Source: a virus
Reading direction: 5' to 3' (one strand)
Length of the DNA: 21,172 nucleotides
Virus record (IMG/VR): IMGVR_UViG_3300006923_000159
Coordinates: 1-21,172 of that record
The notes beneath the pieces are model-generated. The model saw only the letters and a program-made list of their open reading frames with translations. It searched no databases and was not told the DNA's origin. The translations under genes and the position numbers were made by a program. Below are positions 1,949 through 21,172 of the stretch, piece by piece; within the stretch, counting starts at the first letter, position 1; every line of letters starts with the position of its first letter.

Positions 1949-1981
1949 CTATGCTTGCTCACTTTCTATTCATATTATATG

Positions 1982-1989: not shown

Positions 1990-1991
1990 CT

Positions 1992-2543: not shown

Positions 2544-2568
2544 TTACTTTGCTCCTTCTTTCTCTGAA

Positions 2569-4778: not shown

Positions 4779-4830
4779 GGTGACTCTCCTTTTATTCGGA
4801 CTTTAATCCGGTTGACAATTGGTTCGTATT

Positions 4831-4838
4831 TATTTATA
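4831..4838 (-). promoter_or_regulatory. T4-type late promoter before gp18
   Basis: The minus strand reads TATAAATAAATA, so a perfect TATAAATA overlaps a second ATAAATA shifted by four bases. It lies in the 75-base gap between the terminase stop (4854) and the sheath ATG (4778), the longest gap in the structural block. High-level sheath expression from its own promoter would be expected. Confidence 0.7.
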
Positions 4839-4853
4839 AAATAGAGGGGTTCA

Positions 4854-6512: not shown

Positions 6513-6921
6513 TCTCTTTTAACTTTGTTCTGTTGGCTATATGTTGTTCTTGTATGACGTCTTTGCTTTGGCCGTTATACGGAACGCCATATCCTTCTTT
6601 AATCATAATCTCCGTTGCACCACACCACCTATTCTGTACACTATAAAATACTTCTACATCACCAAGTATTCTACCATACTTGCCTTTTTTGTCAAGAAAG
6701 GTTTTTAAAAATCTACCTCCAGCAACAAGTTCAATTAACTTATCTTTGGCTAGCAGTCCATACTTTTTTTCTTCAAGGTCTCTTGTTCGAGACTCCGGAG
6801 TATCAATGCCCATCATACGAACGCGTTGTTTTCTTAACCATACACCAAAACCCAAGTCAATGTCAACATCTATTGTGTCGCCATCAACCACTTTTATAAG
6901 TTTAAAGTTATAATCGTACAT
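6496..6921 (-). CDS. Staphylococcal-nuclease-like (thermonuclease) protein
   Basis: 141 residues with the full catalytic pattern of the SNase family: VVDGDT (Asp13/Asp15), the segment QRVRMMGIDTPES giving Arg35, Asp40 and Glu43, and KYGRIL giving Arg84. These correspond to the Ca2+-binding Asp/Glu residues and two catalytic arginines of the micrococcal enzyme, so it is probably active on DNA or RNA. There is no signal peptide, so it should act in the infected cell. It starts 2 bases after the stop of the MscS-like gene and overlaps the terminase start by 17 bases, so it is made with the packaging proteins. Its role could be host DNA degradation, trimming during packaging, or a virion-carried nuclease; the sequence does not decide. 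Confidence 0.88.
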   Translation of the reverse strand: MYDYNFKLIKVVDGDTIDVDIDLGFGVWLRKQRVRMMGIDTPESRTRDLEEKKYGLLAKDKLIELVAGGRFLKTFLDKKGKYGRILGDVEVFYSVQNRWCGATEIMIKEGYGVPYNGQSKDVIQEQHIANRTKLKENGIIV

Positions 6922-6922
6922 A

Positions 6923-7366
6923 TTACATTCCGTTCTTTAGTTTTTCTATTTCTTCTTTGTTTGTAGAAATTGCTTTATCTTGACCAGCATCTAATATTGC
7001 TTGGATCCTTTTTGCTTCTTCGAGTGGTGTATCTCTGTGTACATCTTTTGCAACAACTTTTTCCAATTTAAGCATAGCAATTCTTTCATTAGGAACATAT
7101 CTCCATGTATATCCTCTGTCACCGTATATTCCAAACACAGTATTCTTTACACCTATCTTAACTATAATAGCATCTACGCCATCTAATATTACCTTATCAC
7201 CTTCGTTGAAAGCCTTGCTCATAGAGAATGCTATTCCTTTAGCAAAGCTAGTCGCAAAATCTTTAAACCATATCGCAACAACTAGCGATATAAGAACCGA
7301 GATCCAAGGCAATATTAAATCTGTGAAGTCAGTCGTCAGGCCCTGTAGGGATGGTTGCTCCAACAT
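6923..7366 (-). CDS. Small MscS-channel-like membrane protein
   Basis: I place the start at the ATG at 7366 because AAAGGA lies 8 bases before it; upstream GTG (7402) and ATG (7396) codons lack a spaced ribosome site. This gives 147 residues. One strong hydrophobic helix spans about residues 15-34 (LILPWISVLISLVVAIWF). It is followed by FAKGIAFSMSKAF, then a beta region with FNEGDKVILDGVDAIIVKIG and RYVPNERI. This order matches the pore helix and Sm-like beta domain of MscS channels (compare the FRAGEYVDLGGVAGTV and IPNGKI patterns). The two outer MscS helices and the cytoplasmic alpha/beta domain are missing. The C-terminus is charged and helical. It overlaps the gp16 end by 38 bases and sits in the packaging operon. 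It might form a small pore or act as a membrane-anchored factor; function unproven. Confidence 0.65.
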   Translation of the reverse strand: MLEQPSLQGLTTDFTDLILPWISVLISLVVAIWFKDFATSFAKGIAFSMSKAFNEGDKVILDGVDAIIVKIGVKNTVFGIYGDRGYTWRYVPNERIAMLKLEKVVAKDVHRDTPLEEAKRIQAILDAGQDKAISTNKEEIEKLKNGM

Positions 7367-7769
7367 GAGTTTTTCCTTTAAGGGAATTTCTTGCATTGCC
7401 ACCCAATAATTTGGTTAGCTCAGAAGTATTACCCACAAATAGATTGTTGTTTATTGTTTTAGGATTCTTCTCATCAAATAAATCTTTTGCCTTTTTCTGT
7501 AAATCAATTAAATCTCTATTAGTTTCTCCTACCACCTTGATAACTTGAGCAACAACTTCATATGCTCTAGGCGATTGGCTTTGTTGTGCTAGATCCATAA
7601 TACCATCTAAAGCATCGCGGCCGCGTTCTATTAAATGAATGATGTTCTCACGAGAATAGTCAACATCATTTTCCACTTCGGTCGGTTCTGCCTTCGCCGG
7701 AACTTTTGGCTCCTCAACTATAGGTATCATGTTTAAACTGTCTGCTATTTTATCCACTTGTGTTGGCAC
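7329..7769 (-). CDS. gp16: Terminase small subunit
   Basis: The start is the GTG at 7769, because GAGGAG lies exactly 7 bases before it; a TTG at 7784 has no ribosome site. The product is 146 residues. The N-terminal 40 are Pro/Glu-rich and probably flexible. The central helical part, from about DYSRENIIHLIERGRDAL to RDLIDLQKKAKDLF, matches the T4 gp16 core with its central SPRAYEVVAQVIK motif (T4 has SPRHMEVFATLM) and TNRDLIDL. In T4 this subunit forms a ring that recognises DNA and regulates the gp17 ATPase. The C-terminal tail is Gly/Asn-rich. It overlaps gp15 by 20 bases and the MscS-like gene by 38 bases, which suggests translational coupling. Confidence 0.88.
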   Translation of the reverse strand: MPTQVDKIADSLNMIPIVEEPKVPAKAEPTEVENDVDYSRENIIHLIERGRDALDGIMDLAQQSQSPRAYEVVAQVIKVVGETNRDLIDLQKKAKDLFDEKNPKTINNNLFVGNTSELTKLLGGNARNSLKGKTHVGATIPTGPDD

Positions 7770-8664
7770 TAAAATACTCCTCAAAATCTTGTATTATTCC
7801 ATAATCATCATCTTCATCAATTAATGTATAGTCTACAGTTAAACTTGAATTTGTTGTTGGGCTACCATTAGCTAACATCCCAGGCGTTGTAAGTGTCTTA
7901 CTATGTAGAGCAAAAATAGATGAATTGCCTATACTTGTATTTACTGTAGCAAAGACTGTATTACTTGGATGCGAGTTGGCAATAAGTGTATTTGCTCCAG
8001 TCCTAAGTCTGGCATCGTCGACATAAAAACTTGTGTTTGCTTGTTTGATAACACCAGATTTCTTCAATGGGCCCCACAGATATCCCTTTAGTGTAAATTG
8101 CAGAGTATGAATTAGTGCACGTCTAGTTTCAAAGTCACCATCATATGTATCTTCCATACTCACAGAATTAAGAATAATTGGGATATCATGCTTCCAGCTC
8201 ATCTCTGGGATTACAGTTATAGTGGCTGTAAACTCTGGTGTAAAGAATGGAAGAATCTGTTCAATTATCTTTGTCGAATCTTCTGCAAACTTGGTATATA
8301 TGTTGAGCGAGAACCCTATATCATATGGTACAGGATTGTACGAAGCATATATCTTAGCCTTATCATCTTCATATGCACTAACATTTCTATGAATAGTGTT
8401 CAATTTTCTCTCTGCTGCATATTGAAACGATTCCATTTCAAATGACATTCTAGGTAATACTACAGCTGGCTCGCGATCAAGTTGAGGATCTTCAATTAAC
8501 CTCGATAACATTTTCTCCCTAGGAGCATATGCGAGAGGTACTTTGATATCCTGAACGATATTGTTCGAACTATTTTTTCGCTGCACTATTATATCATTGA
8601 ACAATGTGCCAAATGTTATAACATACCTTCTTAATGTTTGATGATAATATGTTTGTCCTAGCAT
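7750..8664 (-). CDS. gp15: Tail completion / sheath terminator protein
   Basis: 304 residues. T4 gp15 caps the finished tail, stabilises the contracted sheath and connects the tail to the neck. Recognisable family features are the N-terminus MLGQTYYHQTLRRYVITFGT, the segment KVPLAYAPREKMLSRL, AVVLPRMSFEMESFQYAAER, YNPVPYDIGFSLNIYTKFAED, and the strand pair PIILNSVSMEDTYDGDFETR. The C-terminal 80 residues are Asn/Ser/Thr-rich and then acidic, ending DEDDDYGIIQDFEEYF; this tail appears to be an extension. The start overlaps the gp14 stop as TAATG, so translation is coupled. Confidence 0.93.
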   Translation of the reverse strand: MLGQTYYHQTLRRYVITFGTLFNDIIVQRKNSSNNIVQDIKVPLAYAPREKMLSRLIEDPQLDREPAVVLPRMSFEMESFQYAAERKLNTIHRNVSAYEDDKAKIYASYNPVPYDIGFSLNIYTKFAEDSTKIIEQILPFFTPEFTATITVIPEMSWKHDIPIILNSVSMEDTYDGDFETRRALIHTLQFTLKGYLWGPLKKSGVIKQANTSFYVDDARLRTGANTLIANSHPSNTVFATVNTSIGNSSIFALHSKTLTTPGMLANGSPTTNSSLTVDYTLIDEDDDYGIIQDFEEYFSANTSG

Positions 8665-9434
8665 TAGAACGTACCGCCTTCACTAAATGGATCTGCATCA
8701 CTGAAGTCAACAATTGCATCCGCTTGCGTTTCAATATAGATGTTTTCAGAATCTGTAATCGTATCAAAGTCTTTAGATGCAGTAGTACTACTATCACTAC
8801 GATCTTCTTCTTCTGATAACAGTCTTACATTGTCTTCTGTAAACATTGCTGTAAATCCGTCTTCAGTAGTCAATTGAACATCCAGGTATATATCAGTACT
8901 AAATTCTGTTTCTATACTATCAATCTCTGTTATACCAGTGTTTAATCTCTGGTTAGTATATTCAAACAGTTCAACTGATAGAGTATAAAATTGCAGTGCA
9001 CCCATTTGATAGAATACAGGCTCATGCTCAACATGCTTTACTTGAAAACACTTTGTATTGAGAGGAAGGTAAATTAGATCACCTTCTTGCGGACGATCAA
9101 TATTTTGTGGAGTTCCTACAGCAGATGCAAATGATCGACGACCAACGGCCAATGTCATTTGATCTCTAATCTCCAAACCAAATCTACCAAGCAAGTCTCC
9201 TTCACCACCAAATCCTTCAACATTAACTATGTACATCTCTACATCATCTGCTTGGTTGAAGTATTCTTTTGGACTCTCAGTATAGAGAGCATCGTACCCT
9301 TCCTCTTGTAGCGTACGCGCACAGTAGGTAATATCAATACCATATATTCGAATAGACTCTAGAACAAGATCTTCGACCAGACTTTGTTCTTGGCTATTGC
9401 CATAATTATTGAAGTGTGTGCTTGTTCCGAACAT
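8664..9434 (-). CDS. gp14: Neck protein gp14
   Basis: 256 residues, the same length class as T4 gp14. With gp13 it closes the filled head and attaches the tail. Family-typical stretches are the N-terminus with SQEQSLVEDLVLESIRIYG, then TYCARTLQEEGYDALYTES, FGGEGDLLGRFGLEIRDQMT and GDLIYLPLNTKCFQVKHVE. The C-terminal 50 residues are acidic and Ser/Thr-rich. The protein ends SEGGTF, and the codons for this end supply an AAGGCGGT ribosome site for gp15, whose ATG overlaps the stop. A ribosome site AGGA lies before the ATG at 9434, 3 bases after the gp13 stop. Confidence 0.94.
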   Translation of the reverse strand: MFGTSTHFNNYGNSQEQSLVEDLVLESIRIYGIDITYCARTLQEEGYDALYTESPKEYFNQADDVEMYIVNVEGFGGEGDLLGRFGLEIRDQMTLAVGRRSFASAVGTPQNIDRPQEGDLIYLPLNTKCFQVKHVEHEPVFYQMGALQFYTLSVELFEYTNQRLNTGITEIDSIETEFSTDIYLDVQLTTEDGFTAMFTEDNVRLLSEEEDRSDSSTTASKDFDTITDSENIYIETQADAIVDFSDADPFSEGGTF

Positions 9435-9437
9435 TTA

Positions 9438-10184
9438 TTATCCTATCATGTCCATGACAGGCAAGGAATGCCCGACTATTACTTCGTCCTCTATTTTATT
9501 TTTTTCATCTAATCCTTGTTGTAGAATCGTTGCACCATCAAATTGAACACCGCCAGGCAATTGCATTCCAGTAAATTTAGACAAGTTCTGGCCCCACTGT
9601 ACTTTCATCAATGCTGTGGCATAGTTCTGCAACCACCTCTCGCTCCACATATCTGTGTATGTGTCAGGATCAAGACGGCGATATACCTCTGCGATCATAT
9701 AATTTCCCGCTTCGATGTTGCCCCAATCCATATCAACGTGTAATCTATTCTTATGTCTATTGAATCTCAATGGCTGCTTACCAACGAGAATCTCTTCAAT
9801 AAACCTAATGTTCATAAAGTTCATATAAAATGGTACAAGATCATATCTTGATAAGTCATATAAATCATTCAATGCAATTTGATATCGAATGTTAAACAAA
9901 TTATTTGTGCTTAATGCATCTCCAAGATCAAACAAATTAATGACACCTTCAATTAGTTCGCCCGAACCAATGGTGATATATTTGTTTGTTTTGTCGTCTG
10001 CAGTGACTATATGCTTAAAGAAGTCTCTTTCTAAGCCATCAAAATGATAGTCTGTATAGAACTTTAATGCTTCGTCTATTCTATCTTCTGCTTGATCGTC
10101 ATCTATATTGATTTCAATGACAGGCTTACCCAGACGGCGTAAGCAATATTCTTTAAATGCAGCTCGTGTTGCTGGAACAGCCAT
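9438..10184 (-). CDS. gp13: Neck protein gp13
   Basis: 248 residues; T4 gp13 is longer (309). The N-terminus is highly characteristic: AFKEYCLRRLGKPVIEINID, then DDQAEDRIDEALKFYTDYH. Further on are RHKNRLHVDMDWG and YRRLDPDTYTDMWSERWLQN. In T4 it works with gp14 as head completion / neck protein, forming the connector between portal and tail. It starts 3 bases after the stop of the preceding small structural gene, with GGGGGT serving as ribosome site. The order gp13-gp14-gp15-gp16-gp17 is exactly that of T4. Confidence 0.94.
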   Translation of the reverse strand: MAVPATRAAFKEYCLRRLGKPVIEINIDDDQAEDRIDEALKFYTDYHFDGLERDFFKHIVTADDKTNKYITIGSGELIEGVINLFDLGDALSTNNLFNIRYQIALNDLYDLSRYDLVPFYMNFMNIRFIEEILVGKQPLRFNRHKNRLHVDMDWGNIEAGNYMIAEVYRRLDPDTYTDMWSERWLQNYATALMKVQWGQNLSKFTGMQLPGGVQFDGATILQQGLDEKNKIEDEVIVGHSLPVMDMIG

Positions 10185-10828: not shown

Positions 10829-11025
10829 TAAAATGTTCCTCCATCAGCATCAGGAGCAGACAATACATAGTTCCCAGTAGTCGAATTATACACCAAAATA
10901 TTACCATTCGACTTTGCTGATTCCACAACATCATCCACTGCATCGAGACGAGCAGATGTTCCTCCTGCCATTGATCCTGCAACTCTAATAGATAGTCCTG
11001 TAGTGTTTACCAGTTGTGTTGCCAT
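10828..11025 (-). CDS. Small virion-type protein, paralogue of the following gene
   Basis: 65 residues: an N-terminal part with Thr/Gly/Ala (LVNTTGLSIRVAGSMAGG), then SARLDAVDDVVESAKSNGNI and a C-terminal beta-type segment ending DADGGTF. Its similarity to the next protein is strongest in the last 40 residues. The start overlaps the stop of the 11025-11360 gene (TAATG), and its own last codons form the GGAGG ribosome site for the next gene. No known domain recognised; probably a minor virion component by context. Confidence 0.65.
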   Translation of the reverse strand: MATQLVNTTGLSIRVAGSMAGGTSARLDAVDDVVESAKSNGNILVYNSTTGNYVLSAPDADGGTF

Positions 11026-11360
11026 TAGGCTCTTGTTACCTCCGGTGTTACTGTAACGATACCCTCTACAACTCTTGTTTTAACATTAGCAGCTGACAAA
11101 ATCTCAACATCATATACATATCTTCCAGAAGAAATAGCTGCTGTGTTTGCATGATTGAGAGCAAGTGTCAGCGTACCAGCTGTTGTACCGTTTGTAATGG
11201 TGAAAGAGGCAGTAGCGTTTGACGAAGTGTGGTGCTTTCTTATTTGTCCTGCGGCCGTGTAATTAGTGAGATCAATTTTATCACCATTTGAATCTGTAAC
11301 TGTTACAACCGTTTCAAAATTAGCACCTTGGTCTACGACCATATCTGCACGTGCAGCCAT
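11025..11360 (-). CDS. Ig-like / BppU-type virion protein
   Basis: The start is the ATG at 11360, because AAGGAG ends 9 bases before it; an ATG at 11369 would abut the ribosome site. This gives 111 residues. The pattern 'D-x-G-A-N-F-x-x-V-V-T-V-T-D-x-N-G', 'DLTNYTAAGQIRKH', 'G-T-L-T-L-A-L', 'SGRYVYDVEI' and 'VVEGIVTVTPEVTR' is that of a small beta-sandwich protein common in phage structural operons, similar to the N-terminal domain of baseplate upper proteins. It is the first gene after the late promoter and opens the neck/packaging operon. Probably a virion component; the exact location is unknown. Confidence 0.7.
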   Translation of the reverse strand: MAARADMVVDQGANFETVVTVTDSNGDKIDLTNYTAAGQIRKHHTSSNATASFTITNGTTAGTLTLALNHANTAAISSGRYVYDVEILSAANVKTRVVEGIVTVTPEVTRA

Positions 11361-11394
11361 TATATGCATCTCCTTGAAATAAATTAGCTAAATA

Positions 11395-11442: not shown

Positions 11443-12384
11443 ATGAAAATGGGCACAATAGAGCCAGAAAACAACCCCTTTACATCTCTTGTTTGCGATA
11501 TTACACACCGGTGTAATATGGAATGTGCGAATTGCTATATTCCAAACCGAGAAATTCCTGATATGGACATCGAAAAACTCTATGCCCTTATTAAGCGCCT
11601 TCCTAAAAGAGTATATATTAGATTGATAGGTGCAGAGCCAACAATGAGAAATGATCTGTTTGATATTATAACAACAGTCAGATCTCTCGGTCACAAGGTC
11701 AGTGTTACTACAAATGGATTAAAATTAGCCTCTCCTAACTATGCAGCTAAACTTAGAAAAACGGGATTGAAGTTAATTTTAATTAGTATGAATGGTGCAG
11801 ACGATGATCCTGTATATCGAGTATTAGATAATGGACCATATGGTGAATTAAAAGTCAAGGCTCTAATCAATGCGTTTAAAAACAACTTTACAGTTAATAC
11901 TGGAACAATTATTGCTAAGGGAGTTAATGAGTTTACGATTAGAGAGCAGGTAAGGACTGTTGTCCAGGCGGCAAAGATAGCTGATTATAAGTTTGATAGG
12001 CGTCTTCCTCCTGTATTAAGAATGAAAAGCATAGGAGCAATAGGCAATTATAGAGAGGACAGTACATATTCGTTTGATGAATTGTGTAACTTAGCTTCTG
12101 ATTATTTGGATATACCAATTGAAAAAGTTAAAGCTACACCAGTAGAAAGCGGCTTAAATAGAATTTCATATGTAGATGAAGACACATACAAATATAATGA
12201 ACCAGCCAGCTATGCGTTTAATTATGAAACAGAATTGGGCAACATTATTATAAGATTAATTAACTGGGAAGTTGATGGTGATGGCGTACCAGATGCTAAC
12301 AACGAACATAGAGGCAGAGTAACACAAGATTTTAAAATTGCTCCCTTCTTTGCTCATGTAAAGGAGAATGAATTTGGATATTAA
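11443..12384 (+). CDS. Radical SAM enzyme
   Basis: 313 residues. The CxxxCxxC iron-sulfur motif is at Cys24, Cys28 and Cys31 (HRCNMECANCYIP). It is followed by GAEPT at about 63-67 (the 'GGEP' SAM-binding motif) and VSVTTNG at about 87-92. These place it in the MoaA/PqqE-like branch of the radical SAM superfamily, which uses a 4Fe-4S cluster and S-adenosylmethionine to start radical chemistry. There is no C-terminal Cys cluster of the SPASM type, and the C-terminal part has a single Cys, so it probably holds one cluster only. Substrate unknown. It is first in a tightly packed plus-strand operon with an oxygenase, glycosyltransferases and a methyltransferase-like protein. Ribosome site GGAG, 8 bases before the ATG. 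Confidence 0.88.
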   Translation: MKMGTIEPENNPFTSLVCDITHRCNMECANCYIPNREIPDMDIEKLYALIKRLPKRVYIRLIGAEPTMRNDLFDIITTVRSLGHKVSVTTNGLKLASPNYAAKLRKTGLKLILISMNGADDDPVYRVLDNGPYGELKVKALINAFKNNFTVNTGTIIAKGVNEFTIREQVRTVVQAAKIADYKFDRRLPPVLRMKSIGAIGNYREDSTYSFDELCNLASDYLDIPIEKVKATPVESGLNRISYVDEDTYKYNEPASYAFNYETELGNIIIRLINWEVDGDGVPDANNEHRGRVTQDFKIAPFFAHVKENEFGY

Positions 12385-13042
12385 GGATAAATTTTTTAGA
12401 GATGGCTTTGTTGTTGTAGAAGATGGAGATTTAGAAGAACTTGCAAGCATGTTTGTGCGATCATTAAAGGTTGACAAACATATACATCCTAGCAACAATA
12501 CAATACAAATTCTTAGTAACAACGAAATGTTTGGCACTGACGAGGTTCCATGGCACAATGATTTTAGTCACAGTCGTGGCAAGTATGATGGATCATTGTT
12601 AAAGTGTATTAAAAATGAACCAGATGTTGCTACTACTTTTGTTGATGGCCAAAAAATTGTTGAGAAACTTAGTGAAGAAGAAATAGATGAATTAGAACAA
12701 ACTACAGCATGGTACTCGCGACCAGCTATATATGAGAGTTGCTTTACTGAACGGCAAAACAAAATCATAAACAAACTAAGCATAAAGCGACCTCTAATAT
12801 TTAAACATCCAATAAGCAACAAGAAAGTATTATACTTTAGTCCATCTACAATGGTTGGTGTTGACAAACCTTTCGATATACCATACTATATGTCACTATG
12901 TGAATCATTTGCGTTTCACCATGTATGGAAAGAAAACCAAGTTGTTATGTGGGATAATTTGAGATTTATGCATAAAAGGAAATCATTTGCAGATTCTGGG
13001 TATAGAGAAATGCACAGAATCCAATTTAGGTATGTTGCATGA
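12368..13042 (+). CDS. TauD/TfdA-like Fe(II)/2-oxoglutarate dioxygenase
   Basis: 224 residues. It carries a complete facial triad: His63-x-Asp65 (PWHNDFSH) and a distal His202 in QVVMWDNLRFMHKR, a hallmark TauD/TfdA segment, plus an Arg at about 217 (HRIQFRY) suited to bind 2-oxoglutarate. It should hydroxylate, desaturate or otherwise oxidise a small molecule or polymer unit; the substrate cannot be read from sequence. It overlaps the radical SAM gene by 17 bases. The ribosome site AAGGAG ends only one base before the ATG at 12368, whereas an in-frame TTG at 12374 sits 7 bases away. The true start may therefore be that TTG, making the protein two residues shorter. The downstream gene begins inside its stop (ATGA). 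Confidence 0.85.
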   Translation: MNLDIKDKFFRDGFVVVEDGDLEELASMFVRSLKVDKHIHPSNNTIQILSNNEMFGTDEVPWHNDFSHSRGKYDGSLLKCIKNEPDVATTFVDGQKIVEKLSEEEIDELEQTTAWYSRPAIYESCFTERQNKIINKLSIKRPLIFKHPISNKKVLYFSPSTMVGVDKPFDIPYYMSLCESFAFHHVWKENQVVMWDNLRFMHKRKSFADSGYREMHRIQFRYVA

Positions 13043-13461
13043 AAAATATGATAGACGAAGAGGTTCCCGAGCATTGGAAAACAGCTCGAGGGACAATGTT
13101 AAATTATTATAGACAAATTGTTAATGCTCAGAAATGGCGGAACTATCTTGTTGTAACATACAAGGATTTATATGAAGCCTATGACAATGTTCACAAGTTT
13201 AAAGTGATGTTGGAAAAGAGAGTTCCCTACAATTATAATCAAGAATTAAGACAACACCTTGTGTTCAAAGCAAACCAAAAGTTTGTTAATCATGGACAAC
13301 GTCGTTTATTGATTAGAGACTTTATGGAAGATCATCATACAATGCACACCATCATTGTTGCAAAATCAGTAACTCCACTAGTAGTGTTATATGAAGAACA
13401 TGTACCATTCGAGCAAGTAGATGAATATTTAACTATCGAAAGAAATTACTATTATGAGTGA
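13039..13461 (+). CDS. Unknown protein in the modification operon
   Basis: 140 residues; I do not recognise a family. It is basic, Tyr/His-rich and probably mostly helical, with an N-terminal MKNMIDEEVPEHWKTARG and a His-rich stretch MEDHHTMHTIIVAKS. The last third is strand-like (SVTPLVVLYEEHVPFEQVDE). There is no signal peptide or membrane helix. The ATG overlaps the dioxygenase stop (ATGA), and its own stop lies 8 bases inside the next gene, so it is a real, coupled member of the operon. Given its neighbours it could be a small accessory or scaffold protein for the oxygenase or glycosyltransferases, but nothing in the sequence shows that. Confidence 0.75.
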   Translation: MKNMIDEEVPEHWKTARGTMLNYYRQIVNAQKWRNYLVVTYKDLYEAYDNVHKFKVMLEKRVPYNYNQELRQHLVFKANQKFVNHGQRRLLIRDFMEDHHTMHTIIVAKSVTPLVVLYEEHVPFEQVDEYLTIERNYYYE

Positions 13462-14338
13462 TCAGATTAATGTTTTTTGTGTTAAGTGGGTTCCTCTTGA
13501 AGAACCGTGGCGGCATAACGGATCAATGTATCTTGATGTTCATGTATATGATCTAAAGAATCAACTGTTTAATACCATGAATGGAAAGGACTTTAATTTT
13601 TATTTGTTAACCAACCACACTGGTATTACTGATCCAGACATAACAATTATTGATATAACGAAATGGGGATATGAAAAATGGTGGAATAAGATGCTTCTTT
13701 TCAATCCAGACATTAGTAAAGAAGGCATCAATCTATATTTTGATTTAGATGTAACACTTGATGGTCTTGAAGGAACACCTCAATACCCAACTCCAGAAGA
13801 TATTGATAATAATTGTTGGGTATCGGAGAAATGGAAAAGTGAAGGCAAATGGAAGAACTATGAAAAATTTCCACGACAGATTGATTGGATGATAGATTGG
13901 GTTAAAGCACAACCAGACAAGCTAAGATGCATATACAAGTATTGGACACCTGTAGAATTTAAAAGAAATGCATATTATAACTCTGGATGGAATCCAAGGT
14001 TCGCATATCCTACATTAATCAATACATCGTTTATGGGCTGGAATGGTCGTTCACTAAAAGACATGTGGTGGGACTTTGAAAAGGATGCAGATTTTAATAT
14101 GACAAGATTTTGGGGCAATGATGATTATCTTGAACATCTGTGGCCCGATCGTCTTGCTGTCATGCCTCGTAAAATATTTTATTCATATTTCTATGGAGCA
14201 GAGCATGGATCAGAGTTCTTTGATAAAGATAAGGAAATGTTTATTAAAAGACAAGATTATTACGTCAGGCTTCTCAATGGTAAAGGAAAGAGAATCGATT
14301 ATTCAGATGAAATGGAGGTAGGCGGCTGGCGTGATTAA
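13454..14338 (+). CDS. GT-A-type glycosyltransferase (first of three tandem paralogues)
   Basis: 294 residues. A metal-binding DxD motif (Asp97-Leu-Asp99 in LYFDLDVTLDG) follows a beta-alpha-beta start (INVFCVKWVP) and the block EKWWNKMLLFNPD. Later blocks are LINTSFMGWNGRS, then FWGNDDYLEHLWPD, which may supply the acceptor-side acid, and KIFYSYFYG. These blocks occur in the same order in the two downstream genes. The enzyme should transfer a sugar from a nucleotide-sugar; donor and acceptor are unknown. It differs from its paralogues by an insertion of about 60 residues after the DxD (around residues 110-170). No membrane segment, so cytoplasmic. It overlaps the genes on both sides by 8 bases. 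Confidence 0.78.
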   Translation: MSDQINVFCVKWVPLEEPWRHNGSMYLDVHVYDLKNQLFNTMNGKDFNFYLLTNHTGITDPDITIIDITKWGYEKWWNKMLLFNPDISKEGINLYFDLDVTLDGLEGTPQYPTPEDIDNNCWVSEKWKSEGKWKNYEKFPRQIDWMIDWVKAQPDKLRCIYKYWTPVEFKRNAYYNSGWNPRFAYPTLINTSFMGWNGRSLKDMWWDFEKDADFNMTRFWGNDDYLEHLWPDRLAVMPRKIFYSYFYGAEHGSEFFDKDKEMFIKRQDYYVRLLNGKGKRIDYSDEMEVGGWRD

Positions 14339-15065
14339 TTTATTGACAATGAAATGGGGTACAATGTTTGTACCAGAGTATCCCAATCTTATTCATAGAA
14401 TGGCTAAAAGATGGATGCCGGGTGAGTTTAATTCATACTGCATGACAGATGATTCAACAGGATTAGATCCGGAAATAAATATCGTCGAATGCTCAGAGAA
14501 GTGGTTGTGGGATGATATAACAACTATGGAACAATGGTGGTTTTGGGACGCTATAAAGATGTCGTTATTTGCTCCTCGACTTTGCGGCATTGAAGGAAAG
14601 ATACTTTTTTCGGATCTGGACAATCTATTTCTTGGCCCACTAGATAGAATCGTAGATACCCCTACACCAGCTATGATTGCTTGCGATTGGATGCCTCCTT
14701 GGCATGTAGGCATGCACGGTGGTAATTATTTTCTTACAATGATGTACAATGCAAGTTTGATTTATGTTGATAATACTCAACCAATCACAAATGAGATATG
14801 GGAACACTTCTGTAAGAATTATGAAAAAGCTAAGCATTCATTGTATAGCTCTGATGCTTATTTGTGGAGAAACTGGAGACACAAAATGAACAGATATCCT
14901 GAACGTAGTGTATATTCATACAATCGCGGGACAGTATATCCTGAAAAGGAAAAATACAAACACAGACCAGACCATGCCGTATGTGTTTTTATGGAGGATC
15001 ATGAACCAGATCCATTAGATATTAAAGAAGGGTGGGTAGCAGACATATGGAAACAGTATGTGTAA
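14331..15065 (+). CDS. GT-A-type glycosyltransferase (second of three tandem paralogues)
   Basis: 244 residues, starting at a GTG inside the previous gene's end; a GGAGG lies 12 bases upstream, a rather long spacing. An ATG at 14349 would remove the first strand. Shared blocks: SYCMTDDSTGLDPEINIVE (compare YCMTEDREGIDSNIQILE in the third gene), QWWFWDAIKMSLFAP, the DxD motif at about 95-97 (ILFSDLDNLFLG), YNASLIYVDN, SDAYLWRNW and VYSYNRGTVYP. The C-terminal VCVFMEDHEPDPLD places an acidic/His motif where such enzymes often coordinate metal. A hydrophobic/aromatic stretch around 130-140 (PWHVGMHGGNYFLT) is specific to this copy. Donor and acceptor sugars unknown. Confidence 0.78.
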   Translation: MINLLTMKWGTMFVPEYPNLIHRMAKRWMPGEFNSYCMTDDSTGLDPEINIVECSEKWLWDDITTMEQWWFWDAIKMSLFAPRLCGIEGKILFSDLDNLFLGPLDRIVDTPTPAMIACDWMPPWHVGMHGGNYFLTMMYNASLIYVDNTQPITNEIWEHFCKNYEKAKHSLYSSDAYLWRNWRHKMNRYPERSVYSYNRGTVYPEKEKYKHRPDHAVCVFMEDHEPDPLDIKEGWVADIWKQYV

Positions 15066-15679
15066 AGTTCGGTGATCTGTATAGTTCAGAATATGTAAAC
15101 CAACTGTATAAGCAGGTTGGCGATCCTTTCTATTGCATGACTGAAGATAGAGAGGGAATAGACAGCAACATACAAATACTAGAAGCTAATGATGAATTTC
15201 CAGAACGAAAGTGGTGGAATAAAACAAAGCTATTTAAACCAGGATTAATGGAAGGACCGTTTGTATATTTTGATTTAGATTGTTATGTCAATAATCTAAA
15301 AGACATTAGATGGACTGAGAGCCCTCAATTTATTAAAACCGTGTGGTTTAGTGATGATGTTGCAAGAAAAGTTTTCAGTGTCAATGTTAACAGTTCCGTC
15401 ATGGTAATTAATAACAATGCCGATTTCTTATGGAAAGAGTGGTACGACAATAAACAAAAACTGTTCAAATCATTTTATGGAATAGATGCATGGATTTATA
15501 GACGATGGTTATCAAACATACAATTTATAGATCCACAAATAGTCTATTCGTATCGTTACGGGCACTCGTGGCCAGACGATGTTGAAACAAATATTTTTAG
15601 AGATATACCAATTTGTATATTTGATAATGTAGATAATAGAGATGAAGTATTAAAGGATATTTGGAATGGCCGATCATAG
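15047..15679 (+). CDS. GT-A-type glycosyltransferase (third of three tandem paralogues)
   Basis: The start is the ATG at 15047: alignment to the second copy begins here (METVCVKFGDLYSSEYVNQL), while an upstream GTG at 15032 adds residues with no counterpart. 210 residues, the shortest copy. Blocks in order: FYCMTEDREGID, RKWWNKTKLFKPG, the DxD motif at about 76-78 (VYFDLDCYVNN), NSSVMVINNNADF, YGIDAWIYRRW, VYSYRYGHSWPDD and CIFDNVDNRDEV. In the WWNK block it is closest to the first copy, and in the CMT-D block to the second. Lacking the insertions of the other two, it may represent the minimal fold. The next gene begins 14 bases before its stop. Confidence 0.78.
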   Translation: METVCVKFGDLYSSEYVNQLYKQVGDPFYCMTEDREGIDSNIQILEANDEFPERKWWNKTKLFKPGLMEGPFVYFDLDCYVNNLKDIRWTESPQFIKTVWFSDDVARKVFSVNVNSSVMVINNNADFLWKEWYDNKQKLFKSFYGIDAWIYRRWLSNIQFIDPQIVYSYRYGHSWPDDVETNIFRDIPICIFDNVDNRDEVLKDIWNGRS

Positions 15680-16286
15680 TAAACTAATTAGCAATAACGA
15701 TACCATACAAAAATTATTTGTAAAGGGATTAAAGTACACAAGCGACAATCATGTATATAAACTCAAAGATTACTGCGAGTGTGTATTTGATACCCAGATA
15801 CAAAGTAAGGAATGGATGGTATCAACAATTAGAGATTTAGGTTACTATCCCAAGCATGTTACAGTACTTGCAGGTTGGTACGGCATGGTTATCATCCCAC
15901 TGCTTTACAAAGCATTTGGTGAAATAAAAATTGATCTATATGATGTAGATGAATATACTATCGACATTGCATCACACGTATTCAATGATTGGCCAAACGT
16001 CAACCTATTCTGTAAGGATGTTGTCTTTGATGAAATCGACTTTCAAGGAGACCTGTTAATCAATTCATCATGTGAACATATGATGGACATGAAGGAAATA
16101 ACAGAAGCCAATGAAGGTAAGGTATTTGTATATCAAAGCAACAATAACAGAAATGTAAAGTGGCTTCATATCAACTGCGTCGAAGAAACAGACGAATTGG
16201 TTGAGCAAGCCGGACTTACAAGAGTTTTTTATGCCGGCAGCTGCATGATATATCGCAATAAAAGAATTATGGTGATTGGACAATGA
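15666..16286 (+). CDS. Class I SAM-dependent methyltransferase-like protein
   Basis: 206 residues. A Rossmann-type motif I occupies about residues 65-74 (VTVLAGWYGM), followed by an acidic strand end at about 90-95 (IDLYDVDE) and a motif IV-like LLINSSCEHMMD near 130-141. The glycine loop is sparse (AGWYG rather than GxGxG), so SAM binding is likely but not certain. The substrate is unknown. Lying after three glycosyltransferases it might methylate a sugar product or a peptide. Ribosome site AAAGGA, 8 bases before the ATG inside the previous gene; the following ATG overlaps its stop (ATGA). Confidence 0.72.
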   Translation: MADHSKLISNNDTIQKLFVKGLKYTSDNHVYKLKDYCECVFDTQIQSKEWMVSTIRDLGYYPKHVTVLAGWYGMVIIPLLYKAFGEIKIDLYDVDEYTIDIASHVFNDWPNVNLFCKDVVFDEIDFQGDLLINSSCEHMMDMKEITEANEGKVFVYQSNNNRNVKWLHINCVEETDELVEQAGLTRVFYAGSCMIYRNKRIMVIGQ

Positions 16287-16705
16287 ATATAGAAGTTAAT
16301 CCAAAAGTATTTGCCTTTACGATGTTGTTGTTTAGTCAACAAATGATGCATCGAATGTTTAATCCTGAGAAGGATAATGAATGGATAGCTATCCAACCTG
16401 TATTTCAAGAACTAGCAGAAGCATTATCTGAAGAAAACAAAGCTCTAGCTATGGTCCGCCTTATGGAATACGACGGGCTGAGTCCTTTAGTCCTTACAGG
16501 CTTCGAGGATCTATGGTTCATCATGTTGGCCATATCTAATTTTAGAGTAACGATTCTAAGATTGCATGATCAAAGCAATGAACTAGAGCACTCCGAACTT
16601 GAAGGTACTAACGATCCATTATCATTAATGTATCTTACTTTATGGAATGTAATTATGAAAGGTTATAAATTCGACAAAAGCGAATATAACTCCAGGCACA
16701 TTTAA
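16283..16705 (+). CDS. Unknown helical protein, last gene of the plus-strand operon
   Basis: 140 residues, not recognised. Acidic overall and apparently all-helical, rich in Met and Leu (FTMLLFSQQMMHRMF near the N-terminus; LWFIMLAISNFRVTILRL in the middle). The hydrophobic stretches are interrupted by polar residues and look amphipathic rather than transmembrane. The ATG overlaps the methyltransferase stop (ATGA), so it belongs to the same operon. Its stop codon TAA shares bases with the stop of the convergent oxygenase-like gene. No terminator hairpin is visible at this convergent junction. Confidence 0.72.
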   Translation: MNIEVNPKVFAFTMLLFSQQMMHRMFNPEKDNEWIAIQPVFQELAEALSEENKALAMVRLMEYDGLSPLVLTGFEDLWFIMLAISNFRVTILRLHDQSNELEHSELEGTNDPLSLMYLTLWNVIMKGYKFDKSEYNSRHI

Positions 16706-17604
16706 CGAGGTGCTTGGTTGTAACGAGCCTCGCGAGGTAATTGATTGTAGAGCTTTTCTGGCTCACCTTTTTGTTCTTCTGGGAACATCCGGGAGCGACG
16801 TGCTTGGCCAACTCCACCTTTATGACTATCGTAAGGACCAACATAGCCCGCATCTGGAATGCTATCTGGATTCCATTTTGCCAGAGGCCACACTTGCTCT
16901 TTTCCAGTAATCTCCTCGATCATCATTTGCCACATTTTTTCATCAAAGATGACATAGCCGAGTGTTATTCTAGGTCCACCAACGGCGGCGTGCCACATAA
17001 CCTTATCATGCTCAGATGACTTACCATAATAGCCAGTTTTAAGATGCCAGCCTTTAACATCAGGAATATGTACTAGTTTCGAATCATCACTAATATCATT
17101 AATGATTCCTGTTGATCCTTCTGGATCAATATGTCTCCAATAACCATCACCAGTATGGTTATATGTAAACAGCAAGTTATAGCCTGGAACATTGTGATTA
17201 GTGTGCCATGCAATATATCCATTCTTCGGATAGTATATTTTAAGCGCACAGAACCTACTATTAATTAGCCCGCCAAGTTCCTTGTCAAGCCACTGGCTCT
17301 TTTCCATCACTTCTCTGGCCAACTTAATGTCAACATCATCATGTTTAATCCACGTTGCCATTTGGTTAAAGTCATAACCATGCGCGTCGGGTGGAAAACC
17401 ATCATGTCGATCGCCGCCGCCATCAGCAACAAAGTTTCGCAAGCATTCCATTGAACAGGAATACTCACTTCTGCCTTCTTGAAAGAACTTACCGCCCTTT
17501 CCTTTTCGGCTCATAAAATAATCTAGATCTAGATCAAATACATATCGCTGCCATTCATTTAACAACTCCAGAATGTCTGGTTGAATATCGTATATTGGTG
17601 TCAT
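16702..17604 (-). CDS. Fe(II)/2-oxoglutarate oxygenase-like protein with an HxN site
   Basis: 300 residues. The jelly-roll core lies at about residues 115-225. The first metal motif reads His134-Thr-Asn136 (YIAWHTNHNVPGYNLLFTY), the distal His205 is in VMWHAAVGG, and Arg212 (GPRITLGYVIF) is placed to bind 2-oxoglutarate. The usual HxD/HxE carboxylate is thus an Asn, so it is either a family variation, a different ligand set or reduced activity. The overall look is prolyl/lysyl-hydroxylase-like, of the kind found in T4-like marine phages. The C-terminal 60 residues are basic, Gly/Pro/Arg-rich and probably disordered. A ribosome site AGGAG precedes the ATG. It is last in a unit with a glycosyltransferase and the repeat protein. 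Confidence 0.72.
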   Translation of the reverse strand: MTPIYDIQPDILELLNEWQRYVFDLDLDYFMSRKGKGGKFFQEGRSEYSCSMECLRNFVADGGGDRHDGFPPDAHGYDFNQMATWIKHDDVDIKLAREVMEKSQWLDKELGGLINSRFCALKIYYPKNGYIAWHTNHNVPGYNLLFTYNHTGDGYWRHIDPEGSTGIINDISDDSKLVHIPDVKGWHLKTGYYGKSSEHDKVMWHAAVGGPRITLGYVIFDEKMWQMMIEEITGKEQVWPLAKWNPDSIPDAGYVGPYDSHKGGVGQARRSRMFPEEQKGEPEKLYNQLPREARYNQAPR

Positions 17605-17640: not shown

Positions 17641-18510
17641 CTACCTAAAAACGTCGAAACGTCCGATTGAGTTTGTTATCTTGGGATGCTCCAATTGCTC
17701 ATTATCTATTTTCTTTTTTGGTATTGTATAGTGCCAAAAAACTTTCTGGTTTTCATCATCTAGTTCTTCGGCGTCTCTATACCCAGATACATAATTCCAC
17801 TTTGCATGGATTTCTTTAATATTAACTTGGTAGTCGACATCAAAGTTTGTTCTCCAAAATGCGAAAGTGTCCCAGAACCATAATGTTTTAGGATATGGAT
17901 ATCCCCAATTTTTATTCGGATTCATTTCAATTTGTTCTGCATAATTTTGATACCACATATTTAACATTTTTAATGTGCGTTCATTATTTTTATACAAGAA
18001 CATACCACAGTGCCATTTAAACCTATAGACACCTTTATCGCCTTCCCACTTATGTACAACAGCATCCTTAATCATACTTTTGTCTGGCTCTTTCCAATGC
18101 CTTAGTTCTTTATCGTTTGTAAAATAAACAACCTTGGCATTGTAGGGTCTGTTGCATGTCATCGCCATGTCGTATTCATCATCGTGTTCCAATTGATCAA
18201 AGATGTGTCTTATATCTTCAGATTCACAAAAGGTATCTGCGTCCATAAAACAAGTAAGATCGTATGGCGTTCTTTCTAATGCCCACAACTTGGCTCGACA
18301 ATGTACTGGAATATCTAGGATTACATTATCAAAAATATCTCGATACTTTTCGTCCCACCAGTCTTTATGTGTAAAAAGTGTAATTTTTGCATCTGGCCAG
18401 AAGTCTTTAATCGAATCAGCTGATTGTATAGCTGCATCAAAATAAGGCCTTGTAAGAGATGCTACGTAAATAAAGCCTCTACTCGGCTGTGACAGTTGCG
18501 TCCCCACCAT
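17641..18510 (-). CDS. GT-A-type glycosyltransferase
   Basis: 289 residues from the ATG at 18510; GGAGG lies 9 bases upstream, inside the end of the preceding gene. An ATG at 18516 is only 3 bases from it. The N-terminus is a typical first strand (GFIYVASLTRPYFDAAI). The metal-binding motif is Asp-Ala-Asp at about 90-92 (CFMDADTFCES), preceded by AKLWALERTPYDL as in other small phage and bacterial GT-A enzymes. Later blocks are FKWHCGMFLYKNNE, the aromatic TLWFWDTFAFWRTNFDVD and KVFWHYTIPKKK. It is a different subfamily from the three plus-strand copies, which have DLD and the WWNK block. No membrane segment. It lies between the coiled-coil-prone unknown and the oxygenase-like gene, so it may act on a product of this unit. 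Confidence 0.78.
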   Translation of the reverse strand: MVGTQLSQPSRGFIYVASLTRPYFDAAIQSADSIKDFWPDAKITLFTHKDWWDEKYRDIFDNVILDIPVHCRAKLWALERTPYDLTCFMDADTFCESEDIRHIFDQLEHDDEYDMAMTCNRPYNAKVVYFTNDKELRHWKEPDKSMIKDAVVHKWEGDKGVYRFKWHCGMFLYKNNERTLKMLNMWYQNYAEQIEMNPNKNWGYPYPKTLWFWDTFAFWRTNFDVDYQVNIKEIHAKWNYVSGYRDAEELDDENQKVFWHYTIPKKKIDNEQLEHPKITNSIGRFDVFR

Positions 18511-19255
18511 CAACATTAACCTCCACCATATTATCTAAAGCAATAACAGCTCCAATGTTTGCTGTCACTTCCATCAAAGTTTTCGATCGTCTGATTGCAG
18601 ACTTCAATTTCTTATGTGGAGAGTTTCTCACAACATCCAATTCGAATGCTTCAATCTTGGCCTGAAACAGTTCCTCGGTTATTTGTTTTGCTGTTGCGTC
18701 TTTGTCCGCTAACTCAGCCTTTTCCCTAAGCCTATTTAGCTTGTTGATCTCGCGTTGCGTATTTTTCTGGATTTGCTCATTACCAAATTCTTTATGAATC
18801 CAATACCAAGCAGCCCGATGTTGATCGGCTTTATCAATCCTAATTGTTTCAATTGGACCGGGACCGATCGGTGTATCAGGTTGTCTAAGAACAAAGAACA
18901 ATACATTCTTTGCATCGTCTCCATAATATGCATAGACTACCTCGCCGTCTCCAAATGGAAACTTCCATTCTTTAGTGTCGGCTAATTCACTATCTTCTTC
19001 GTTTGCCCGTCTTTGAGCAGACTCGCTTTCTTCCGCAATTGCCATTCTTGTCTCCTCTTCGTGAGGGTTTGCTTCATTGACTCGTTGCCAATATGTAACC
19101 GCTGGAACCTTTTTAACTAGTCCCAATCGATCGACTTCTTCGTCTACTTCTAATCTTTGTTTTGGTTGAGCCTGCTCCTCGTTGAGGACTGCAGCTACGC
19201 TCATATCAACAGATTGGTTGGCACCATCTGCTTCGGTTGCTTCTATATTTGACAT
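18479..19255 (-). CDS. Unknown acidic, coiled-coil-prone protein
   Basis: 258 residues, not recognised. The first 95 residues are very acidic and low in aromatics. Residues 97-155 look folded (EWKFPFGDGEVVYAYYGDDA, then AWYWIHKEFG). Residues about 160-225 form a long charged helix likely to be a coiled coil (NKLNRLREKAELADKDATAK), and the C-terminus is beta-like (NMVEVNVDGGDATVTAE). It starts 12 bases after the repeat-protein stop, with GAGGT as ribosome site, and overlaps the glycosyltransferase gene. In phages the gene just after a fibre gene is often an assembly chaperone or adaptor; that is possible here but not shown by the sequence. Confidence 0.75.
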   Translation of the reverse strand: MSNIEATEADGANQSVDMSVAAVLNEEQAQPKQRLEVDEEVDRLGLVKKVPAVTYWQRVNEANPHEEETRMAIAEESESAQRRANEEDSELADTKEWKFPFGDGEVVYAYYGDDAKNVLFFVLRQPDTPIGPGPIETIRIDKADQHRAAWYWIHKEFGNEQIQKNTQREINKLNRLREKAELADKDATAKQITEELFQAKIEAFELDVVRNSPHKKLKSAIRRSKTLMEVTANIGAVIALDNMVEVNVDGGDATVTAE

Positions 19256-19267: not shown

Positions 19268-21172
19268 TCATGCTGTTCTTACCCACAAAGATACCGTACT
19301 CACTGTTTCTACGGTATCATTAATATTTGTGCCAACGTATGCTTTTTCGTACCCTTTAGTATAGGTACCTTGCCAAACCTTTGTATAAGTTTTTTGATAA
19401 GTTTTAACATAGTTGGCCGCCCACGCTTTACCATATGCTGCGGCATAATCTTTAGACCAATCTCCTCCATATTCTTTAGCCCATATCTTGGTGTACGTTT
19501 TATTGTACACGCCAGTATATGTTTTCACATAGTCTTTGCTGTAATCTTTTGAATATGTTTTGATGTAATCTGATGAATAATCATGCTCGCCGGCATAATC
19601 TTTAGACCATAGTCTACTATAGACCTTAGTATATATCTTTTCATAATTCTTGTCAAACGTACCTTCATATGTTTTACTATATGTTTTTGTATATGTCTTC
19701 GTATAATCTGCATCATAATTGGTTGAATAATTTACATCGCTTCCATATGAACCAAGAAATGCTACGGCACTTGTATAGGTTTTTGTATAATCCTTGGACC
19801 ACACCTTAGTGTATGTTTTAGTGTAGTCTTTTGAATATGCTCTATCACCTAAGAATGTACCTGTATATTCCTTTTCATATGCCTTACTATACGACAAAAA
19901 GCCTCTGTTGGCAACATATATTTTTGCATAATCTGCGCCATATGTCTTAAAATAATTGCGATCACCGGCAAACGAACCTTCGTAGCTGTTAGACCAGCCG
20001 CCACTATACGTCTTGGTATAGTCTTTTGTATAGGTGGCTTCGTATTTCTTCACATACTGCTTTGTATAGTCTTTTGTATAGGCGGCTTCATAATCACCAA
20101 CATATGTTTTGGTGTACGCTGCAACATAGTCTGCACTATAATCTTTATTCCAATGTCTGGTATATACTGCTGCAAAATCTTTCGCCCAGGCTTTCCTATA
20201 TCCTCTAACATAATTGGTAGCATAGTCGGCCGTGTATATTGTACTATACTCTCCTAGATACGTTACAGTTCCAGTATATGTTCCCTCATATGTCTTTGAA
20301 TATGATTTTGTATAATCTCTATCGAAGCCACCACCATAAGATCGATCACCATGATATGTTGCTTCATATCCTTTTACCCAGTTTTTATCATATGCAGCTT
20401 CGTATTCTTTAGCAAAGTTCTGTGTATAAACTTTTGTATAGGCTTTTTCATACGCAGCTTCGTAATTTTTTTCATAAGTACCAATATACAGTTTGGTCCA
20501 AATCTTAGTATAATCAGTATCAAATGATCCTTCATATGCTTTTGAATATATTTTTGACCAAACTTTGGTATAGTCTGCGGCATAGTCTTTTGAATATGCT
20601 TTCGTATAATCCGTACTATAATTTGTTATGTAGTCCTTAGAATATGTAGCATCAAACAATCCTGTATATACACCAGTGTATGTTTTTGTATATGCCTTCA
20701 CATATGCTTTCTCATAGTCTGTGCTATAATCTGTTGAGTAATCTTTGGTATATGTGGCATCGAATAAACCAACATAATCTTTAGCATAATCTTTAGACCA
20801 GAGTTTTGAATATTCTGTGCTATAATCTTTAGACCAGATTTTAGTATATGTGGCATCAAATAGGCCGGTGTAGTCTGTTGAGTAATCCTTAGACCAAATT
20901 TTAGTGTAATCACCTGACCATTGTTTAGCATAGTCTTTGGAATAAGAAGCATCAAACAAGCCAGTATATACTGTCGAGTAGTCCTTAGACCATATTTTAG
21001 TGTAATCGCCTGACCATTGTTTAGCATACACTTTTGTATATGTGGCGTCGAATGCACCACCATAATCTGTGCTATAGTCCTTAGTATATACACCAGTGTA
21101 TGTTTTTGTATAGACCTTCGTATAAACTTTTGTCCATATCTTAGTCCATACCTTGGTATAGTTTGCACCATA
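19268..21172 (-). CDS. Giant Tyr/Lys tetrapeptide-repeat protein, probable fibre or adhesin (N-terminus off the right edge)
   Basis: The frame is open to the window edge: 634 residues visible, no start seen (an in-frame GTG at 21031 is inside the repeats). An aromatic occurs every fourth residue (YTKI-WSKD-YSTD-YTGL-FDAT). From the edge to about 20354, 69 consecutive tetrads keep this register. From about 19577 to 20356, eight six-residue steps interrupt it, with fillers HGDRS, TGTVT, AGDRN, VANRG, LGDRA, TSAVA, GSDVN and AGEHD. One step of three (FLSY) is the only odd spacing. Regular tetrads then resume until 19337, and a non-repeat tail of 22 residues ends VETVSTVSLWVRTA. There is no Cys, Pro or Met. 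Consensus: aromatic, Ser/Thr/Ala, Lys/Gly, Asp/Thr/Val. I recognise no named domain. A long, repetitive, late-type phage gene is most often a tail fibre or surface adhesin, but this is inference. Confidence 0.8.
   Translation of the reverse strand, partial: YGANYTKVWTKIWTKVYTKVYTKTYTGVYTKDYSTDYGGAFDATYTKVYAKQWSGDYTKIWSKDYSTVYTGLFDASYSKDYAKQWSGDYTKIWSKDYSTDYTGLFDATYTKIWSKDYSTEYSKLWSKDYAKDYVGLFDATYTKDYSTDYSTDYEKAYVKAYTKTYTGVYTGLFDATYSKDYITNYSTDYTKAYSKDYAADYTKVWSKIYSKAYEGSFDTDYTKIWTKLYIGTYEKNYEAAYEKAYTKVYTQNFAKEYEAAYDKNWVKGYEATYHGDRSYGGGFDRDYTKSYSKTYEGTYTGTVTYLGEYSTIYTADYATNYVRGYRKAWAKDFAAVYTRHWNKDYSADYVAAYTKTYVGDYEAAYTKDYTKQYVKKYEATYTKDYTKTYSGGWSNSYEGSFAGDRNYFKTYGADYAKIYVANRGFLSYSKAYEKEYTGTFLGDRAYSKDYTKTYTKVWSKDYTKTYTSAVAFLGSYGSDVNYSTNYDADYTKTYTKTYSKTYEGTFDKNYEKIYTKVYSRLWSKDYAGEHDYSSDYIKTYSKDYSKDYVKTYTGVYNKTYTKIWAKEYGGDWSKDYAAAYGKAWAANYVKTYQKTYTKVWQGTYTKGYEKAYVGTNINDTVETVSTVSLWVRTA
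20016..20089 (-). repeat. Short direct repeat (48-base period) in the same gene
   Basis: The plus-strand string GTATAGTCTTTTGTATAGG, followed by a variable base and GGCTTC, occurs at 20016-20041 and again at 20064-20089. The spacing is exactly 48 bases, or four tetrads, so the reading frame and aromatic register are kept. Confidence 0.75.
20741..21028 (-). repeat. Three in-frame 96-base repeat units in the Tyr/Lys repeat gene
   Basis: Three consecutive blocks of 96 bases (20933-21028, 20837-20932, 20741-20836) each encode eight tetrads with GLFDA[ST] at the same place. The first two are nearly identical at the protein level, both starting YAKQWSGDYTKIWSKDYST. The third keeps the WSKD and GLFDAT positions. 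A related block ending GAFDAT lies upstream toward the edge, and another GLFDAT occurs downstream one tetrad out of step. This suggests amplification by recent unequal exchange. Confidence 0.85.

Follow-up and report, generated by a model that had tools for sequence, protein, structure and literature searches.

A tetrad-repeat protein of uncultured T4-like marine phages as one arm of a proposed giant beta-hairpin fibre

In the long tail fibres of T4 and the YadA-type fibres of cyanophages, three chains assemble into beta-helical or coiled structures. Fibre genes of the T4-like/YadA type in the cyanophages S-BM1 and S-CAM8 occupy the same genome position as the gene described here, between VrlC/gp8 and gp13, but those compared show no sequence similarity to it and contain no tetrads. 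The nearest physical analogy to the structure we propose, taken as a lead only, is the single-layer beta-sheet of Borrelia OspA, which is extended, two-faced, rich in Lys and Thr and without a classical core; the two are not homologous and differ in scale by one to two orders of magnitude. T4-like pelagiphages have a host recognition cluster between the baseplate/VrlC and neck genes, where fibres and glycosyltransferases gather, and some of their tail fibre proteins could not be identified (PMC7029224). GP38 adhesins (T2, S16 and PP01 type) are small proteins with short loops, and in PP01 these loops decide host binding and host range (PMC12892980). The closest described protein is CDS0201 of phage C48C1 (OQ984149, Kyanoviridae), annotated as hypothetical and 3,347 aa long, which belongs to the only record among 50,697 phage records matched by our protein. 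It shares an N-terminal anchor domain (about 30% identity), tetrads, an LYVRVA end and the downstream gene order with the family described below, but its tetrads read Tyr/Phe-x-Gly/Arg-x, spacings of 8 residues are frequent, and globular domains have been inserted.

The window, which is the whole 21,172-nucleotide stretch of viral DNA analysed here, carries at 19268..21172 on the minus strand an ORF that is open for 634 codons, includes its 3′ stop and runs off the contig edge at its 5′ end; a 46-base probe for extending the gene matched no contig. Judged against its relatives, the ORF is the C-terminal portion of a longer protein, here called protein B, and not a complete protein: the C-arm, the C-terminal end and the downstream genes are present, and the N-terminal domain and N-arm would lie past the contig end. 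Residues 1-273 (20354..21172, minus strand) form 69 uninterrupted tetrads in one register, with an aromatic at every fourth residue as originally noted, whereas shuffled residues reached at most 10 (2,000 shuffles). Cys, Pro and Met are indeed absent from the whole 634-codon protein. The tetrad consensus given originally holds in its register but not in an invariant Lys at position 3, which is K in 77, G in 29, A in 21 and T in 12 cases (n=149). The outer C-arm (19301..20353, minus strand) is interrupted by breaks of the mirror type treated below (YHGDRSY, YTGTVTY, FAGDRNY, YVANRGFLSY, FLGDRAY, YTSAVAFLGSYGSDVNY and YAGEHDY), and its outermost run of 20 tetrads has the same length in the related loci L002, L004 and L016. 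The protein ends in the strand STVSLWVRTA (19271..19300, minus strand). Aromatic spacings in the window protein (n=151) are 4 in 139 cases, 6 in eight, 3 in two, and 1 and 18 once each; since nearly all are even, nearly all aromatics would fall on one face of an extended strand. The 29 YTK triplets use 12 different codings, and this varied codon choice between tetrad copies indicates that most of the regularity is held at the protein level and does not reflect recent DNA duplication. Single-tetrad indels are common in the array, and 96-bp repeats are found at 20714-21084, at the contig end.

Neither the window protein nor its alignment gave an above-chance match in Pfam, NCBIfam or PDB, and the protein gave none in PHROGs; with its period of 4 the array also had no profile match to pentapeptide, RTX or beta-solenoid families (Pfam, PHROGs, NCBIfam). 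The view that no named repeat family accounts for the tetrads was therefore upheld in each library searched, and for the suggested analogy with mussel foot proteins we found no support beyond sequence likeness. A Prion_octapep match of the window protein (E 0.03, under cut-off) is a composition effect. PHROG 5353, of unknown function, matches the tetrads of the related locus L004 (E 4e-12). Searched against the 50,697 phage records, the C48C1 anchor, the C48C1 tetrads and the L004 tetrads each match only C48C1, the L004 anchor has no match at 1e-5, and the shortest family member (351 aa) has none. AlphaFold2 models of the array and of the anchor with tetrads reached a mean pLDDT of only 27 and 41, respectively, and neither was usable; a Foldseek search with the weak anchor model gave a meaningless best E of 0.36.

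Scanning viral contigs allowed us to obtain full-length relatives, and anchor, tetrads and C-terminal end are all present in L002, L004, L016, L024, L034 and C48C1. Protein B relatives range from 351 to over 3,000 aa. Their common plan puts an N-terminal domain of three modules first, followed by the tetrad array, which is 85 to about 3,000 residues long, and by the strand LWVRTA at the C-terminus. The N-terminal domain, or anchor, spans about 240-265 residues, starts PLKIK...LQEM... and is predicted with modest confidence to consist of repeated strand-strand-helix-strand-strand modules. Modules 1 and 2 close with a strand like SYNLYRKTSV, and module 3 lacks such a strand before the tetrads. 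The C-terminal end, conserved in all complete relatives as LWVRTA, LYVRVA or LWMRTA, resembles this closing strand: STVSLWVRTA ranks 1st to 9th of 1,112-3,103 sequence windows against the module-2 strand profile, although the tetrads themselves score nearly as high. The C-terminal strand thus appears to close module 3. Short homologues, located through the adjoining glycosyltransferase-like gene, have 351-482 aa and share the gene position, the anchor (HMM E 1e-21 to 5e-53) and the end, with loops of only 85-216 aa. These short forms are the key evidence for anchoring at two ends, for which the C-strand rank is support and not proof because the tetrads score so close, and they strongly suggest that the array is a loop anchored at both ends. 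The anchor tree separates short-loop from long-loop forms (97/95). Two further loci, L127 and L128, hold Tyr-x-Gly-x arrays of at least 663 aa with a C-terminal end like that of the short L109 form (211-aa loop), which suggests a second, independent lengthening. Divergent members occur in L147, L148, L150 and L151; some are 467 aa long and have a break at the centre, and others, 669 aa long, resemble C48C1 and carry Arg in third position.

Protein B is usually in tandem with a second tetrad-rich gene, its paralogue protein A. Protein A matches PHROG 2056 ('tail fiber; host specificity') and ends in a GP38 adhesin domain (PF05268; E 1e-10; 41.8, 32.7 and 40.6 bits against a gathering cut-off of 25), and L024:6671-6901 holds a GP38 half-domain (34.7 bits). 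A large tetrad-bearing segment sits between the GP38 Gly-rich motifs in L008, L009, L019, L024, L027, L029, L033 and L036, at a loop of the type that sets host range in PP01, and the same site holds a short loop in L002, L004, L006, L025, L034 and L035. The likeness to GP38 adhesins thus belongs to the domain of paralogue A, and the proteins differ in that GP38 proteins are small whereas the paralogues reach 3,741 aa, and in that protein B has no GP38 match; the window protein shows neither an HMM match to PF05268 nor a Gly-rich motif. Protein A additionally contains a LamG domain in some phages (PF13385, 1.2e-17). This concanavalin-like domain lies inside protein A at L024:3491-4192 and in the same region in L029, L036 and L019. 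Two genes, protein B of L025 (5667-13687) and protein A of L007 (1-6581), occupy two frames compared with their relatives, from either a contig error or a real frameshift.

The genes downstream of protein B form a conserved cassette. Wherever a locus extends far enough, the gene directly following protein B encodes an acidic protein (18479..19255, minus strand; 150-313 aa in relatives), for which a chaperone-like role is our guess. It is followed by a glycosyltransferase-like protein (17641..18516, minus strand) with an invariant DxD (D92, D94) and a weak GT2 match, at 17.7-21.4 bits under the Pfam cut-off of 23.3; a bacteriohemerythrin match of its profile in PDB (E 0.0009) is chance-like and conflicts with the DxD signature. 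The next conserved protein (16702..17604, minus strand) is oxygenase-like, its H134-x-N136...H205...R212-x-T214 residues resembling the core of 2OG-Fe(II) oxygenases but with HxN in place of HxD and no Pfam match; the PDB matches of its profile are chance-like. A protein resembling the L-shaped tail-fibre assembly protein LtfC (11025..11369, minus strand; PHROG 3304, E 2e-23; PHROG 1084, E 2e-26) closes the cassette in nearly all relatives. This order, from protein B through the acidic, glycosyltransferase-like and oxygenase-like genes to the LtfC-like gene, recurs in nearly every long-enough locus, whether the form is short or long, and also in C48C1. Members of the glycosyltransferase-like and oxygenase-like families were matched only in C48C1 among the 50,697 phage records, and the glycosyltransferase-like family is absent from the 84,980 prokaryote genomes searched and gives no host hint. 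Inside the cassette lies an accessory block (11443..16705, plus strand) with a radical SAM protein (PF04055), a TauD dioxygenase (PF02668), three glycosyltransferase-like proteins and one methyltransferase-like protein. The block runs opposite to the structural genes, is kept in most relatives and flips orientation between loci (L002 versus L007). T4-like neck, sheath stabiliser, terminase, sheath, tube and portal genes fill 347..10184 (minus strand), and 6923-7402 (minus strand), in the terminase region, has a weak, sub-cut-off match to a mechanosensitive channel beta-domain (PF00924) not seen in the related loci searched.

The tetrad gene is located between the VrlC/baseplate and neck genes. 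It had been described as next to virion genes, which is not borne out: the nearest clear ones start with neck gp13 and lie below 10184; about 9 kb, with the conserved host-recognition block, separates them from the tetrad gene. The original prediction of a host-recognition fibre gains support from context, namely the cluster position, the GP38 paralogue and LamG in some phages, and from this context we also infer its location in the virion. Protein B is most likely a very long and thin virion fibre for binding or searching the host, and its acidic, glycosyltransferase-like and oxygenase-like neighbours probably assemble or modify it. The wealth of glycosyltransferase-like genes, which in this region have been proposed to change the host surface (PMC7029224), would also suit a hairpin protein acting in the infected cell, as a surface coat or in superinfection exclusion, with the neighbouring enzymes altering host O-antigen. 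This role is unlikely in view of the position in the tail-fibre segment, the LtfC-like assembly neighbour, the GP38 tip of the adjacent paralogue and the anchor, which on direct reading has no signal-peptide-like start.

The arrays of the relatives are symmetric about their centres. Short loops read as arm, break and arm, of 30-12-29 aa in L120 and L126, 41-17-37 in L066 and about 62-16-57 in L119 and L121, and the L066 break YTGPTYYSGFAGAPTKA resembles a motif that recurs in long arrays, GPTYYGGFASGSDTTN. The centre of the array is occupied either by the motif GPxYYGGFxSGSxTTN or, in its place, by a domain about 80-105 residues long. Tetrad runs on the two sides are palindromic, for example 10-5-5-5-5-2-4-5-79, turn, 79-3-5-5-3-2-4-5-10; L019 has 10-5-5-5-5-5-5-5-78 mirrored by 78-5-5-5-5-5-4-5-10, L002 has 20-16-5-5-17-82...90-5-5-16-20, and L055 has 111-7-7-3-2-146 mirrored by 145-6-4-2-8-111. 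Run-order shuffling gave p 0.0002-0.01 in 11 of 12 long proteins (tolerance 4 or 12), to be read knowing that the symmetry and covariation tests were devised after the symmetry had been noticed in the same data. The exception is L023, whose outer arms are not mirrored and which fails because its N-arm differs. Outermost runs shift equally in both arms, from 53/53 in L035 and L057 to 111/111 in L055 and L068. The arms are not reversed copies of each other, as positions 2 and 4 are only 2-11% identical.

Residues facing each other across the mirror also covary. When each clade was represented once (L057 and L068 belong to one clade), position 3 covaries at the mirror register with z 22.6, while z does not exceed 5.0 at any of twelve other registers; in three clades taken singly, z at the mirror register is 11.6, 6.8 and 23.0. 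Because the relatives are akin these z-scores overstate independence, and the clade-wise and cross-trained tests give the safer numbers. Observed over expected position-3 pairs are 100/51 for G-G, 75/42 for K-K and 15/93 for G with K. Covariation of position 2 with position 4 is also strongest at the mirror register, and one diagonal, joining an aromatic to position 3 at j+2, is favoured, a feature of twisted beta-ladders. In a cross-trained scan, a pairing table from the Gly-type clade was applied to Lys-type loops and vice versa, with about 1,500-1,900 diagonals per scan, rising to about 3,000 for the longest loop. The top diagonal lay no more than 2 residues from the geometric centre in six of seven protein B loops (best diagonal/centre: L002 966.0/965.5, L019 784.0/784.5, L024 788.0/788.5, L034 1533.5/1532.0, L035 1161.5/1159.5, L055 1436.5/1436.5), and L023 alone was off-centre, at 877, its own GP turn, versus 833. 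All seven exceeded each of 40 within-run shuffles, which served as the control, a one-string shuffle of the L002 tetrads being unsuitable as it gives longer runs. L034 has 824 residues paired in a single register, and L004 shows several competing hairpins. The L024 and L023 arms each have 5 Gly, and 5/5 coincide across the mirror where 0.3 are expected. When arms were swapped, phage-specific Gly residues of the N-arm were mirrored in 12/24 cases in the phage's own C-arm and in 2/24 in a foreign one (p 0.003), with L024 and L023 sharing a pattern and so not independent. Own and foreign arms were told apart in one of three groups, the pattern being conserved in the other two; strict Gly keeps the signal in one clade, and merging Gly with Ala/Ser/Thr loses it. 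Protein A pairs significantly in L036, where 392-764 pairs with 1207-1579 on either side of LamG (771-987), and in L027, L009 and L033, and not in L024 or L012 (N-part). The mirrored breaks and mirror covariation are found in the relatives, the window holding one arm only; used as a control, this single arm showed no self-pairing.

We consider it reasonably probable (roughly 0.7) that the window ORF is the C-arm of a protein B whose two antiparallel paired arms form a giant beta-hairpin, serving as a host-binding fibre. According to this proposal, the aromatic tetrad array would stand in place of the loop that precedes the final strand of module 3; it would extend, turn at its centre through GPxYYGGFxSGSxTTN or the domain of about 80-105 residues, and return antiparallel to itself, so that protein B would end with the last strand of module 3 (LWVRTA). 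On the rungs, aromatics would face each other, as would position-3 residues (Gly-Gly, Lys-Lys), and position 2 would face position 4, along arms of 30 to about 1,400 residues. The N-arm of the window phage would then begin at its base with about 20 unbroken tetrads, of which numbers 3, 11 and 15 would carry Gly at position 3, mirroring the C-arm KKGKKKAKAKGKKKGKKKKS. Composition and spacing point to a beta conformation of the arms. A single hairpin would explain together the two-ended anchoring, the central break, the palindromic runs, the paired length differences and the register-specific covariation. An extended strand rises about 0.33 nm per residue, so arms of 550-1,280 residues would measure about 180-420 nm if fully extended. 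The GP38 and LamG domains of paralogue A suggest that binding domains ride on such hairpins.

Mirror covariation alone would fit equally a pairing between molecules, as an antiparallel homodimer or multi-chain sheet in which residue i faces C-i of another chain. We regard this as rather improbable and as the less natural arrangement, since both array ends lie in the same small domain, which would place the arms next to each other from their base, the array has a turn-like motif or domain at its centre, and the short forms reduce to 30-residue arms and a 12-residue break; the arms are more likely to pair within one chain. A sticky, disordered Tyr/Lys/Gly-rich linker of low complexity, its regularity being composition bias, would account for the AlphaFold pLDDT of 27, the very low sequence complexity and the common single-tetrad indels. 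It would give no reason for register-specific covariation between residues hundreds apart, mirrored interruptions or paired arm-length differences, and we hold it to be quite improbable. The suggested new solenoid or cross-beta fold has given way to one antiparallel beta-hairpin, to which the mirrored interruptions and cross-arm covariation point. A beta-solenoid or cross-beta stack with fixed tetrads per coil would suit the strict four-residue period, the aromatic stacking of a ladder and the alternation of position-1 and position-3 residues on one face, but common one-tetrad indels speak against a fixed coil size, no solenoid family matches and the mirror pairing is antiparallel over long distances, leaving this fold with very little probability. 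Mirrored arms would be expected of an antiparallel helical hairpin (coiled coil) as well, yet the Gly, Thr, Asn, Asp and Tyr content, with position 3 being 40-70% Gly in some clades, and spacings of 4 and 6, which line aromatics up on a single face in a strand but not in a helix, make it scarcely credible.

The beta-hairpin reading can be extended, tentatively and with less than even odds, to a virion whisker of adjustable length: one beta-hairpin, its arms at most about 1,400 residues long, with an aromatic zipper, Gly-Gly/Lys-Lys rungs, decoration by its own glycosyltransferase and oxygenase, and lectin/adhesin domains at the turn in paralogues. With arms of about 1,400 residues, such a whisker would reach several hundred nanometres when fully extended. 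It would represent a fibre-building principle for which we found no prior description in the open-access literature, a kilo-residue hairpin grown from a loop with arms co-evolving rung by rung, and fibre length would be modular, a common anchor carrying anything from 85 to about 3,000 residues. Natural sequences would then report the register of a beta-ladder over hundreds of residues, offering a test bed for beta-pairing rules and for structure prediction, which fails on protein B. Protein B would also be a candidate for the tail fibres left unassigned in T4-like pelagiphages. The novelty would lie in the architecture, and the function would be more modest, a new kind of fibre for the familiar job of host recognition.

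The window phage and its relatives appear to be uncultured T4-like (Kyanoviridae-related) marine phages. None of nine relatives' records searched, mostly fragments, contains psbA, and in the portal tree the short-form phages join HTVC008M (94/92) with the window clade apart; from these two observations, the hosts are probably not cyanobacteria. The pelagiphage HTVC008M (L047, 7562-9557) carries annotated curli genes (csgF, csgG and csgB), as reported by others before. C48C1 has its own tRNA-Tyr gene (L043:5335-5418, equal to C48C1 55335-55418), which would suit a Tyr-rich fibre.
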